Both the position numbers and the translations under genes were made by a program. Under the pieces are notes generated by a model. That model saw nothing but the letters and a program-made list of their open reading frames with translations. It made no database searches and had not been told where the DNA came from. From contig JAPLVC010000002.1 in NCBI GenBank assembly GCA_026397315.1, forward strand, positions 59,994 through 123,993: a stretch of 64,000 bases of DNA, given 5' to 3'. This document shows, piece by piece, positions 13,222 to 20,837 of this stretch. This DNA is from Candidatus Aenigmatarchaeota archaeon (GTDB taxonomy: Archaea > Aenigmatarchaeota > Aenigmatarchaeia > QMZP01 > QMZT01). Each line of letters begins with the position of its first letter. The stretch's first letter is position 1.

Positions 13222-13362
13222 CGCCGCTCCGGCAATCAGACCAGGTATGATTATTTTTTTCAGAAGATCACCATTTTATAATTTGTCAAACCCGCCTATA
13301 AGCATTCCGGCCGCTGTGACGGACGCAGAAATTTTTTATACTACACTCTTCATTATTATGCT

Positions 13363-14436
13363 ATGAGACCAACTGGTCACCACATAATCGCCGAGTTCAT
13401 ATATTGTTCTAAAGACGTTCTCAACAGCAAGGAAAAAATCGAAAAGATTCTGAGCGACGGCATAGCAAGCGCAGGCCTCTCCGTCGTCAGCATACATACT
13501 CACAAGTTCAGCCCGGCAGGCATCACATGCCTCGCCATAATAAGCGAGTCGCACATCGCGATACACACTTACCCGGAGGCGAGGCACGCGTCCGTCGACA
13601 TTTTCACCTGCTCGCCAGGCCCGGAAAAACCGTTCGCGCTTCTCAATTATCTCAAGAAGCAGCTCAGGCCCAAGACGCTGCGCGTCGGCCACGTCTGCCG
13701 CGGCAACCCGCTGGAGATAAAGTACGCGGACTGGATGGAGGGTTTTTCGACGGTCGGCTTCGAGGTGCGCTATCACGTCAAGAAAATCGTCCACAGCAGC
13801 CGCTCGAAGTTCCAGCAGATAGACATCATAGAAAACGACAACTTCGGTCGCATGCTGCTCCTCGACAAGGACGTGCAGATAGCGGAGAAGGACGCGAATG
13901 CCTACACCAAGAACCTCGTCATGCCGCTCGTCGCGTCCGGCAACAGCCTCGAGAAAGTCATGATACTGGGCGGAGGCGACGGCGCTGCAGCCGCGGAGCT
14001 CATGCAGAACGGCGCGAAAAGGATTGCAGTCGTCGATATAGACAAGGAAGTCATAGCCGTCTCGATGAAGTATCTGAGGAAGATTAACAGGAATGTTTTC
14101 AAGAACCCGAAAGTCAAAGTCACCATAGGCGACGCCTACAGGGTCGTGGCCAGCAGCAGGAAATACGACGCAATCATCTACGACCTCACCATACACCCGG
14201 AGGCCTTCATAAAAATAGACAGGGAAGCGTATCTCTCGAAACTTTTCATGAGGATGAAGAAAAGCCTCAACAGCGGCGGCATGGTGACGGTCCAGTGCGG
14301 TCCGGAATTCGATTATGAGACTTGCAGAATGATGAAGAGGATACTGAAGAAGCATTTCATCGACGTCAATTTCTCGTCGTCCTTCATACCATCCTACTGC
14401 GCCAACTGGGTTTTCGCCTCGGCGAAGAAGAAGTGA
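13363..14436 (+). CDS. Fusion: S-adenosylmethionine decarboxylase (SpeD) domain + spermine/spermidine-synthase-like aminopropyltransferase
   Basis: N-term MRPTGHHIIAEF...SESHIAIHTYPEARHASVDIFTCS (class I AdoMetDC); C-term DVQIAEKDANAYTKNLV, VMILGGGDGAAAAEL, DAIIYDLTIHPEAF, IPSYCANWVFASAKKK. Confidence 0.9.
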   Translation: MRPTGHHIIAEFIYCSKDVLNSKEKIEKILSDGIASAGLSVVSIHTHKFSPAGITCLAIISESHIAIHTYPEARHASVDIFTCSPGPEKPFALLNYLKKQLRPKTLRVGHVCRGNPLEIKYADWMEGFSTVGFEVRYHVKKIVHSSRSKFQQIDIIENDNFGRMLLLDKDVQIAEKDANAYTKNLVMPLVASGNSLEKVMILGGGDGAAAAELMQNGAKRIAVVDIDKEVIAVSMKYLRKINRNVFKNPKVKVTIGDAYRVVASSRKYDAIIYDLTIHPEAFIKIDREAYLSKLFMRMKKSLNSGGMVTVQCGPEFDYETCRMMKRILKKHFIDVNFSSSFIPSYCANWVFASAKKK

Positions 14437-16329: not shown

Positions 16330-16689
16330 ATGAGCAATAAACCATTTGGGTGGGATTTGTGCGTAGACCTATACGGTTGCAAATACGAAAAGATAAGGAA
16401 CAGGAAGTTTGTTTTGGAATTTATACGTGTATTGTGTGATGATGTTCTAAAGGTAAGACGCGAGGGCAAGCCTGTGCTGAAGCGCTATGGCAAGGAGCAC
16501 CTCACGGGTTACTCGTTCATACAGTTAATTGAAGTCAGTTCTATAACCGGACATTTGTCGGAGGAGAGGCTTTCAGCCCACATAGACATTTTCAGCTGCG
16601 CGCCGTTCAACGACAAGAACGTCGAAAACTTCACCAGGGAGTTCTTCGAGGCGAAGAAATCGGTCGCTAGAAAAATCATAAGGAAATAG
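16330..16689 (+). CDS. S-adenosylmethionine decarboxylase family (SpeD-like) protein
   Basis: LTGYSFIQLIEVSSITGHLSEERLSAHIDIFSCAPFNDKNVENFTREFFEAKK; SD-like aggaggtg upstream; adjacent to spermidine synthase. Confidence 0.78.
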   Translation: MSNKPFGWDLCVDLYGCKYEKIRNRKFVLEFIRVLCDDVLKVRREGKPVLKRYGKEHLTGYSFIQLIEVSSITGHLSEERLSAHIDIFSCAPFNDKNVENFTREFFEAKKSVARKIIRK

Positions 16690-17620: not shown

Positions 17621-18187
17621 ATGATACCTGCGAAAGTTTTTTTCGTAAAGGGCGTAGGAGTCCACAAGGACAAGCTTGCTTCTTTCGAAGCCGCCTTGAG
17701 GCAGGCAGGCATAGCGCCGTTTAATCTCGTGAACGTTTCAAGCATACTGCCGCCAAAATGCGAAGTGGTCACAAGGGACCATGGACTCAAGTACCTCAAT
17801 CCGGGCGAAGTGGTTTTTTGCGTGATGGCGAGAACGGACACTAACGAGCCCAACAGGCTCATATCGGTGGCCATAGGCCTTGCTCTGCCCAAAGACAGGG
17901 GTCATTACGGTTATCTTTCCGAGCACCACGGATTCGGCGAGAAGGGCGAGAAAGCCGGCGAGTATGCGGAAGATCTCGCGGCCACGATGCTTGCCACGAC
18001 GCTGGGCGTTCCCTTCGATGCGGACAAGGCATGGGACGAAAGAAGGCAGCAGTACAAAACGAGCGGGCACATATTCAAGACGACGCACATCTGCCAGTCC
18101 GCGGAAGGCCACAAGGACGGCCTGTGGACGAGCGTGATATGCGCTGCAGTTTTCGTGCCGCCTGCAACGGTCGTTTCTGGGCAATAA
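17621..18187 (+). CDS. pdaD: Pyruvoyl-dependent arginine decarboxylase
   Basis: MIPAKVFFVKGVGVHKDKLASFEAALRQAGIAPFNLVNVSSILPPKCEVV (Ser-Ser self-cleavage site); neighbours agmatinase. Confidence 0.95.
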   Translation: MIPAKVFFVKGVGVHKDKLASFEAALRQAGIAPFNLVNVSSILPPKCEVVTRDHGLKYLNPGEVVFCVMARTDTNEPNRLISVAIGLALPKDRGHYGYLSEHHGFGEKGEKAGEYAEDLAATMLATTLGVPFDADKAWDERRQQYKTSGHIFKTTHICQSAEGHKDGLWTSVICAAVFVPPATVVSGQ

Positions 18188-18211: not shown

Positions 18212-19096
18212 ATGAAAAGCGATTTTTCCGGCAAATTCATGAACCTTCCTCCGGAGTTTTCTGACTGTAAGAAATCAAAGATAGTAATCCTTCCGGTGCC
18301 TTTCGACGGCACAAGCACATGGATGAAAGGGGCGGACAAAGGTCCTGAAGCCCTGATTTCAGCTTCTGGGTATCTTGAGTACTGCGAGCCTGAGACAAAG
18401 GCTGAGGTTTGTGAAAAGGGCATTTACACTGACAAGCCCGTCGTTTCCAAAATACCGGAAAGCATGGTAAAAGACGCGTATGGGCGGGTGAAAGCGCTGC
18501 TCGCGGATGGCAAGTTCGTAGTCACGCTCGGCGGCGAGCATTCGGTCTCGATAGGCCCGATTCGCGCGCATGCCGAGCGCTTCGGCGGAATGAGCGTCCT
18601 CCATCTGGACGCGCACGGCGACAGGCGCGACGAATACCATGGCAGCAGATGCAACCACGGCTGCGTAATCGCGCGTGCAAAGGAACATGTCAAAAACGTC
18701 GTCTCCGTGGGCATACGCAGTTTCGACTCCTCCGAGATGGAAAGCCTGGATGAAGACAAGGTATTCTACGCACATGAAATCCACGGCAGGGACGACTGGA
18801 TAAGCAAGGCAGTCAATTCGCTCTCGAATAATGTTTACATAACCATCGACTTGGACGTTTTCGAGATAGGGCTGATGCCATCCACGGGCACGCCGGAACC
18901 TGGCGGCCTCGGCTGGTACGAAGTTACCCGCCTGCTGCGAGCAGTCGCCGAGAAGAAGAACATAGTCGGCTTCGACGTCGTCGAGCTCTGCCCGGACGAG
19001 CGCAACAAGGCGCCGGATTTCCTGGCGGCGAAGCTTGTGCAGGTCCTGCTGAGCTACATATTTTTTCTGGGCAAGCACGCGGAAAAGAAAAGATAA
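18212..19096 (+). CDS. speB: Agmatinase (ureohydrolase family)
   Basis: GGEHSVSIGPIRAHA, LHLDAHGDRRDEY, ITIDLDVFEIGLMPSTGTPEPGGLGW. Confidence 0.94.
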   Translation: MKSDFSGKFMNLPPEFSDCKKSKIVILPVPFDGTSTWMKGADKGPEALISASGYLEYCEPETKAEVCEKGIYTDKPVVSKIPESMVKDAYGRVKALLADGKFVVTLGGEHSVSIGPIRAHAERFGGMSVLHLDAHGDRRDEYHGSRCNHGCVIARAKEHVKNVVSVGIRSFDSSEMESLDEDKVFYAHEIHGRDDWISKAVNSLSNNVYITIDLDVFEIGLMPSTGTPEPGGLGWYEVTRLLRAVAEKKNIVGFDVVELCPDERNKAPDFLAAKLVQVLLSYIFFLGKHAEKKR

Positions 19097-19823: not shown

Positions 19824-20837
19824 TTAGAAAAGCATGCCCGTAGCGTGCTCCGCGTTTCCGATGGCCTTGCCGAGCTCCTTTGACGTGATTTTCGTTCCAC
19901 TCGCCTTGTCTTCGAGCTCGATGTCGGCTATGGTGGCCGGATACTCGTTGTAAACGAGCTTGTTAGGTATGACGCCGCGCGACTTCTTGCGGAAAGTCCA
20001 TGAAGAGTGGGCGTAGGAAACGACGGAGAAGCTTATCCTTTCCTGCTCGTTTTCTCCCGTGACCCTGAAAGTCGGCAGCGCTTCTCCGGACCTTTTCACT
20101 TTTATCCTGTCGAACTTGTGCACCTCTTTCCCGTCGAAAAGCGATATGTCCTTTCTTATGGACTTCCCGAGCACCATGTGGTTCGTGTATGTCATGACGG
20201 CCCCGCGGTCGAAATGGAATATGCCCCAGTACCACGGTATGGCCGGAGCGTTGACGAAGACTCTCTGAAAATATGCGGAGCCGTTTATCTTTTCGCCGTT
20301 CACGCTTCCCGTCAGGTCCGCGTGATTGACCTTCATTATCGAATATCCCTTGTTACCTATGAAATTCCTGTTGTGGTAGCATGCCTTTCTGAAGTCGTGG
20401 CTGGCGTTCTCGATAGCGACGAATTCGAATTTATCACCTATTCTGATTACGCTTCTCTTCCCGTTGATGGAGAATGAGGTCGGTGTTCCGGACTCGGATA
20501 TCAGGCCTTTGTCGTTGACCTTTATGTTGCACTGTTCGAGAAGGAAGTTGTGGTGCATCCGCTCGCCGTCGAAATACCACGTGGCAACGGCTCCGTCAAG
20601 GTTCCCCTTGTCAAGCGGCAGTTTCACGCTTATATCGAGATTGTTGCAGTTTATTTTCTTCACGTTCTTGGCGGACCACAGTATCATCAGCTGGCGGGGC
20701 TTGGACGGGTCTTTCGGGTTGTCGAAGAAGAAGAGCCAGAACCACCACCACCACGCCCCTCCGGGCATCCGCTCGTTCTTAATATCGAAGACCCTCTTTT
20801 CCAGATCAACGTGCTTGTCTTTTCTTCCGGCTTTCAT
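19824..20837 (-). CDS. Conserved hypothetical; possible CrtC/AttH-like lipocalin-fold hydratase
   Basis: WYFDGERMHHNF..., GYSIMKVNHADLTGSVNGEKINGSAYFQRVFVNAPAIPWYWGIFHFDRGAVMTY; family call tentative. Confidence 0.5.
   Translation of the reverse strand: MKAGRKDKHVDLEKRVFDIKNERMPGGAWWWWFWLFFFDNPKDPSKPRQLMILWSAKNVKKINCNNLDISVKLPLDKGNLDGAVATWYFDGERMHHNFLLEQCNIKVNDKGLISESGTPTSFSINGKRSVIRIGDKFEFVAIENASHDFRKACYHNRNFIGNKGYSIMKVNHADLTGSVNGEKINGSAYFQRVFVNAPAIPWYWGIFHFDRGAVMTYTNHMVLGKSIRKDISLFDGKEVHKFDRIKVKRSGEALPTFRVTGENEQERISFSVVSYAHSSWTFRKKSRGVIPNKLVYNEYPATIADIELEDKASGTKITSKELGKAIGNAEHATGMLF

Follow-up and report, generated by a model that had tools for sequence, protein, structure and literature searches.

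An archaeal AdoMet decarboxylase–aminopropyltransferase fusion related to animal spermine synthase: a candidate bifunctional polyamine enzyme

Does a single archaeal polypeptide both produce decarboxylated AdoMet and use it for a second aminopropyl transfer? The question is raised by an open reading frame (ORF) at positions 13363–14436 (plus strand) of a 64,000-nucleotide stretch of Candidatus Aenigmatarchaeota DNA (the window), which lies on contig C1 of a 1.05 Mb genome that is 91% complete. An earlier note on this DNA had described the ORF as an archaeal SpeD-SpeE fusion resembling animal spermine synthase (SMS), possibly an ancestral-type bifunctional enzyme. The reading favored here, with moderate confidence, is that the gene product (P0001) is a bifunctional polyamine enzyme that makes a tetraamine and shares its aminopropyl donor with a separate spermidine synthase. 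The archaeal origin of the sequence is confirmed by the presence of a related fusion (L006; G160:C41:4873–5943) in another Candidatus Aenigmatarchaeota genome of the same order, as well as by a fibrillarin gene that the contig carries at a distance of 5 kb. Downstream of fibrillarin, a 337-aa protein without a Pfam match is encoded on the minus strand (19824–20837).

Layout of the fusion gene and its AdoMet decarboxylase half

As read from the window sequence, the ORF starts with ATG, contains no internal stop codons and encodes 357 aa, the stop codon being included in the coordinates. Residues 1–117 (13363–13713, plus strand) form a class 1b AdoMet decarboxylase (AdoMetDC) domain, which scores 106.3 bits against TIGR03330 (cut-off, 75.65) and matches Pfam AdoMet_dc (PF02675) over residues 7–114 (108.7 bits; cut-off, 25). 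Residues 121–357 (13723–14433, plus strand) constitute an aminopropyltransferase domain that trees place in a clade of fusions and SMS; Pfam matches to Spermine_synt_N (residues 124–175, 51.9 bits) and Spermine_synth (residues 191–356, 102.5 bits) are both far over their cut-offs. A TATA-like A/T-rich box, TTTTTTATAC (13333–13342, plus strand), was read from the sequence about 26 bp 5' of the start codon, a position that would fit a leaderless archaeal transcript of the fusion gene. The base composition of the gene equals that of its neighbors and thus gives no sign of recent transfer, for which reason a recent foreign origin was dropped from consideration.

The processing motif of the N-terminal half (SESH..HTYPE..DIFTC) is complete, with E62, S63, H68, P71 and C83 all present, and in an alignment of 17 sequences these five residues, together with H64, are invariant. 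The codon of Ser63 (13549–13551, plus strand) marks the predicted site of self-cleavage and pyruvoyl formation, a role transferred from the homologous SpeD of T. maritima (PMC10407285). The proline that separates AdoMetDC from arginine decarboxylases is also present, being P71 in our own mapping. The active-looking AdoMetDC half with an intact class I motif, claimed previously, is thus borne out by the residues kept and by the TIGR03330 score. Judging from these intact residues, the N-terminal half would cleave itself between E62 and S63, converting S63 to a pyruvoyl group, and would decarboxylate AdoMet.

Transferase half and its relationship to spermine synthase

In the C-terminal half, AYTK stands where spermidine synthases have YHE, and YDLTIHPEA where they have DSTDP; YDLTIHPEA retains the catalytic Asp and has a loop longer by one residue, as in human SMS (NDLTAVP). 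The loss of both motifs had been noticed in the earlier note, and the four stretches of SMS similarity that it listed proved to be real after the SMS sequence was checked letter by letter against PDB 3c6k and aligned. Both P0001 and human SMS end right past the transferase core and lack the C-terminal tail of about 40 residues found in spermidine synthases. Against the spermidine synthase profile TIGR00417, P0001 scores 136.4 bits, far under the cut-off of 249.55.

In a tree of 46 sequences, all of the fusions, human SMS and a standalone archaeal transferase (L060) are separated from every spermidine and thermospermine synthase (support, 99/99, or 100/100 without the degenerate fusion L018). 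A C-terminal half placed firmly inside ordinary spermidine synthases, the outcome that was to tell against the SMS-like reading, was thus not recovered by phylogeny. Human SMS itself is on a very long branch, apparently outside the fusion family; its placement just outside the fusions and L060 is not rejected (p-AU 0.405), and a tree that unites it with the spermidine synthases of human, worm and plant is rejected (p-AU 0.009). Used as a query, human SMS scores 74–100 bits with each of the intact fusions, P0001 giving the lowest of these values, and no spermidine synthase exceeds 70 bits; identity of the family to human SMS reaches 33% over the transferase half. On the strength of tree, motifs and profile cut-off, the identification of P0001 as an ordinary spermidine synthase was abandoned. 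With regard to thermospermine synthases, motif 2 of P0001 has Asp, not Glu, and the protein is placed away from the clade of plant and Thermus enzymes.

Structure prediction, which the earlier note had proposed as a check, gave a divided answer. AlphaFold2 modelled P0001 with a mean pLDDT of 87.9 for the whole protein, the linker (residues 113–134) being poorly predicted, and the C-terminal domain alone with 92.7. In a Foldseek search with the whole model, the first eight matches were SMS chains (rmsd of about 12, with the uncertain linker), so human SMS is the top full-length match; the C-terminal domain alone retrieved E. coli SpeE first and SMS second and does not single out SMS. SMS as a specific structural twin was dropped accordingly, and the models back the two-domain layout shared with SMS, not specificity.

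Among the active-site residues of SMS, D201, D276 and Y177 have equivalents in P0001: D206 (codon 13978–13980, plus strand), within GGGDGA; D274 (codon 14182–14184, plus strand), within YDLTIHPEA; and Y181. W349 is intact as well. Based on these four residues and on tested homologues, the C-terminal half may be expected to carry out aminopropyl transfer. It could be argued that activity is confined to the AdoMetDC half, with the transferase half surviving as a relic or serving as a structural partner: two relatives, L018 (5995–7050) and L013 (2599–3672), have an intact AdoMetDC half and have lost the catalytic transferase Asp to Thr or Asn, and a canonical SpeE is present in the host genome. 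Since P0001 keeps the Tyr, both catalytic Asp, the Gln and the Trp of the transferase site in an ordinary, well-predicted fold, we regard this explanation as very improbable. L018 and L013 are in effect a mirror image of animal SMS, with AdoMetDC intact and transferase broken; L018 is also without the GGGDG motif, and the genome of L013 carries a separate SpeE.

The acceptor side of the site is less regular. The Glu of SMS E353 is shared by 17 of 17 family members outside one small archaeal group, a count that takes in the degenerate L013 and L018, and by L060 as well; the group consists of P0001 (A347; codon 14401–14403, plus strand), L006 (Val) and L014 (Gln). In the SMS structure, E353 presumably contacts the polyamine, and a literature search for the Snyder-Robinson variant E353K in support of this role found no paper. 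At motif 2, D(G/C)G occurs in all spermine synthases tested (PMC11107197); P0001 has the Asp (D206), and the Gly two residues on is Ala in P0001 (A208) and L014 and Gly in all other fusions. The motif 3 Glu of the same rule is Asp in P0001 (D225), as in about half of the fusion family, and says little on spermine synthase status. Because of A347 and GGGDGA, spermine specificity is uncertain for P0001, L006 and L014, and spermine in particular is not a secure product of P0001.

These changes invite another reading of the bifunctional fusion, with a different acceptor, in which the Glu-less archaeal subgroup makes thermospermine, aminopropylagmatine or another product instead of spermine. The three Glu-less proteins group together, two of them (P0001 and L014) also carry DGA, agmatine would be available through the arginine decarboxylase described below, and corals have converted an SMS homologue to a thermospermine synthase, according to PMC12803844. 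Motif 2 of most thermospermine synthases is Glu, not the Asp of P0001, and all other SMS-like features are kept in P0001; the significance of A347 itself depends on the presumed role of E353. We consider this a possible but minority explanation. In its most specific form, to which only tentative weight is given, the group lost the acceptor-side Glu and gained a new acceptor specificity, so that one self-supplying enzyme would yield a non-spermine tetraamine or a guanidino-polyamine.

Within the fusion family, P0001, L006 and L014 form a group with support of 92/91 in the full-length tree, 90/90 in that of the C-terminal half and 95/89 in another tree, and in the full-length tree this group sits beside two deltaproteobacterial fusions (90/93). 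The archaeal fusions do not form a single clade in the best tree, such a clade being not rejected (p-AU 0.153).

Polyamine genes around the fusion and the proposed pathway

The fusion gene is followed, on the same strand, by a further set of polyamine genes. A second SpeD homologue (P0002, 119 aa; 16330–16689) is located directly upstream of speE, has a G+C content (0.447) below that of its neighbors, and is related to SpeDC pyruvoyl ornithine decarboxylases: some of its relatives carry the signature of SpeDC ornithine decarboxylases, and P0002 itself keeps the Ser, His and Cys residues, with only one of the four SpeDC diagnostic residues in our own mapping. Then follow, in this order, a canonical spermidine synthase SpeE (P0003; 16695–17537), which is over the TIGR00417 cut-off and 2.3 kb from the fusion, a pyruvoyl-dependent arginine decarboxylase (PvlArgDC; 17621–18187, start read from the ORF; PF01862, 203.7 bits), and an agmatinase-type ureohydrolase of the arginase family (SpeB; 18212–19096; PF00491, 214.1 bits).

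Family searches of the whole host genome matched two proteins to AdoMet_dc, namely the fusion and P0002, and revealed one SpeE besides the fusion. Since P0002 is SpeDC-like, the genome probably has no AdoMet decarboxylase other than the fusion. A deoxyhypusine synthase is present, which implies that the host needs spermidine. No BpsA branched-polyamine enzyme was found over the cut-off in the host genome; the sole sub-threshold match was to the fusion itself, and BpsA was dropped as a candidate.

The pathway that we propose begins with arginine: PvlArgDC and agmatinase would supply putrescine, from which SpeE would make spermidine. The C-terminal half of P0001 would then use decarboxylated AdoMet to aminopropylate a polyamine; with spermidine, the most likely acceptor, this would yield a tetraamine. 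On balance, a tetraamine does seem the likely product, with spermine more likely than thermospermine. Because the fusion carries the only ordinary AdoMetDC found, its N-terminal half probably also feeds decarboxylated AdoMet to SpeE, as suggested by the gene content of a genome that is 91% complete. The second aminopropyl transfer suggested previously is in keeping with bacterial homologues that make spermine; A347, GGGDGA, the lowest SMS score among the intact fusions and the apparent need for the fusion to make spermidine in most of its bacterial hosts count against it, and spermine is the part of that claim left insecure.

The same gene content bears on a simpler proposal, that P0001 is a plain bifunctional spermidine synthase, limited to AdoMet decarboxylation and putrescine aminopropylation and redundant with SpeE. 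Apart from the fusion, most of the bacterial genomes that carry it have no SpeD and no transferase that reaches canonical size and score, further PF01564 matches being mostly long proteins (>500 aa) or weak; as the only recognizable canonical transferase, the fusion must also make spermidine there. Moreover, bacterial AdoMetDC–spermidine synthase fusions are known, being cited in PMC12803844. The C-terminal half of P0001 nevertheless lies outside all spermidine synthases and well below the SpeE cut-off, its genome already has a canonical SpeE nearby, and the tested fusions described as nearest to SMS make spermine, which renders this proposal improbable for P0001. A separate SpeE occurs in the window genome, G171, G173 and G400 (L126). 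At L126, from a DPANN genome, the fusion adjoins SpeE and PvlArgDC, an adjacency expected for a second aminopropyl step, as the favored tetraamine reading supposes.

Distribution and comparison with known systems

A single scan of 85,462 species genomes, which finds close relatives only and therefore gives a lower bound on the spread of the family, detected 15 full-length relatives at 45–54% identity and one degenerate relative at 33%. The fusion hosts belong to Nitrospirota, Deltaproteobacteria, KSB1, WOR-3, a PVC bacterium, Marinimicrobia, Aenigmatarchaeota and Ca. Iainarchaeum. Whole-genome searches found the fusion, besides the window, in two of 160 Aenigmatarchaeota genomes, where, of two more matches, one is a fusion of another kind and the other a transferase that stands alone; it was also found in one of 93 genomes of the Iainarchaeum phylum, in one of 380 sampled genomes from the phylum of the Woesearchaeota record, and in 3 of 296 sampled genomes of the Nitrospirota set. 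In archaea, the family is thus rare and patchy. Viral contigs gave no full-length fusion match, only short SpeD-like ones.

Several other archaeal proteins were observed during these searches. L059 (minus strand, 425-aa ORF) from G007, a genome of the same class as the window genome, represents a second, independent SpeD–transferase fusion of Aenigmatarchaeota, whose transferase half carries Glu at motif 2 and clusters with the thermospermine-type enzymes of Thermus and plants. The standalone transferase L060 (minus strand, 238-aa ORF; G079), whose genome has SpeD on another contig, is possibly an unfused relative of the C-terminal half of the fusions. Two Woesearchaeota ORFs of about 450 aa, L045 (2879–4228) and L046 (2158–3501), look on reading like SpeD joined to a deoxyhypusine-synthase-like (SpeY-type) part, and a Diapherotrites SpeD homologue, L048 (5398–6699), has an apparent membrane domain ahead of it in the same frame.

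This distribution bears on the suggested ancestral-type enzyme. The part of that suggestion concerning the C-terminal half, which goes with SMS and lies outside spermidine synthases, holds; P0001 itself nests among bacterial fusions in a family rare in archaea, and this copy does not appear specially ancestral. Transfer from bacteria into DPANN archaea would be the simplest reading of the tree.

The main idea is already published. According to the passages of Li et al. (December 2025; PMC12803844) concerned, the closest bacterial relatives of animal SMS are mostly AdoMetDC–aminopropyltransferase fusions (30–32% identity); those of Deltaproteobacterium MBW2649524 (358 aa) and Ca. Krumholzibacteria MCK4773364 (376 aa) proved active in both halves, as AdoMetDC and in the formation of spermine, and the deltaproteobacterial one prefers spermine over thermospermine about 10,000-fold. 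The animal lineage, in their conclusion, gained such a fusion and then lost AdoMetDC activity. P0001 shares the domain order, size, class 1b AdoMetDC and SMS-related C-terminal half of these two proteins: it is one chain of about 360 residues, AdoMetDC followed by aminopropyltransferase. By description, length and similarity to SMS, the fusions found here very probably represent the same family. Those passages discuss bacterial fusions only, and a literature search on Aenigmatarchaeota and polyamines returned no paper on such a fusion; archaeal members thus appear undescribed. What is new here is their patchy occurrence, a fusion that is probably the only ordinary AdoMetDC within its pathway context, and the loss of the Glu in P0001 and two DPANN relatives. 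These archaeal members extend the bacterial relatives of animal SMS to archaea, and natural acceptor-site variants (Glu to Ala, Val or Gln) within one small group offer a way to ask what sets spermine apart from other products. They also suggest that a tiny DPANN genome may run a full route from arginine through agmatine, putrescine and spermidine to a tetraamine, with a single fused protein as its sole AdoMet decarboxylase.

Compared with the bacterial fusions examined here, P0001 is archaeal and has Ala for the E353-equivalent Glu and DGA for DGG. The Pelagibacter AdoMetDC–aminopropyltransferase fusions (PMC11107197), set beside P0001 by description, are bifunctional, with active AdoMetDC and spermine/thermospermine as products. 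With canonical SpeE (P0003), P0001 shares the transferase fold and the core that binds decarboxylated AdoMet, whereas it lies outside that clade and is without the YHE/YQE motif, the D(S/C)(T/S)DP motif and the C-terminal tail. With human SMS (PDB 3c6k/3c6m), it shares the two domains, ILGGGDG, YDLT/NDLT and the extra loop residue, AYT where spermidine synthases have YHE, PSY..W close to the C-terminus, the missing tail and the clade. The two proteins differ at E353, and also in the N-terminal domain: that of SMS (PF17950, SpmSyn_N; 169 bits) is a dead AdoMetDC, whereas P0001 has no PF17950 match and instead an N-terminal half of the PF02675 type with its residues intact.
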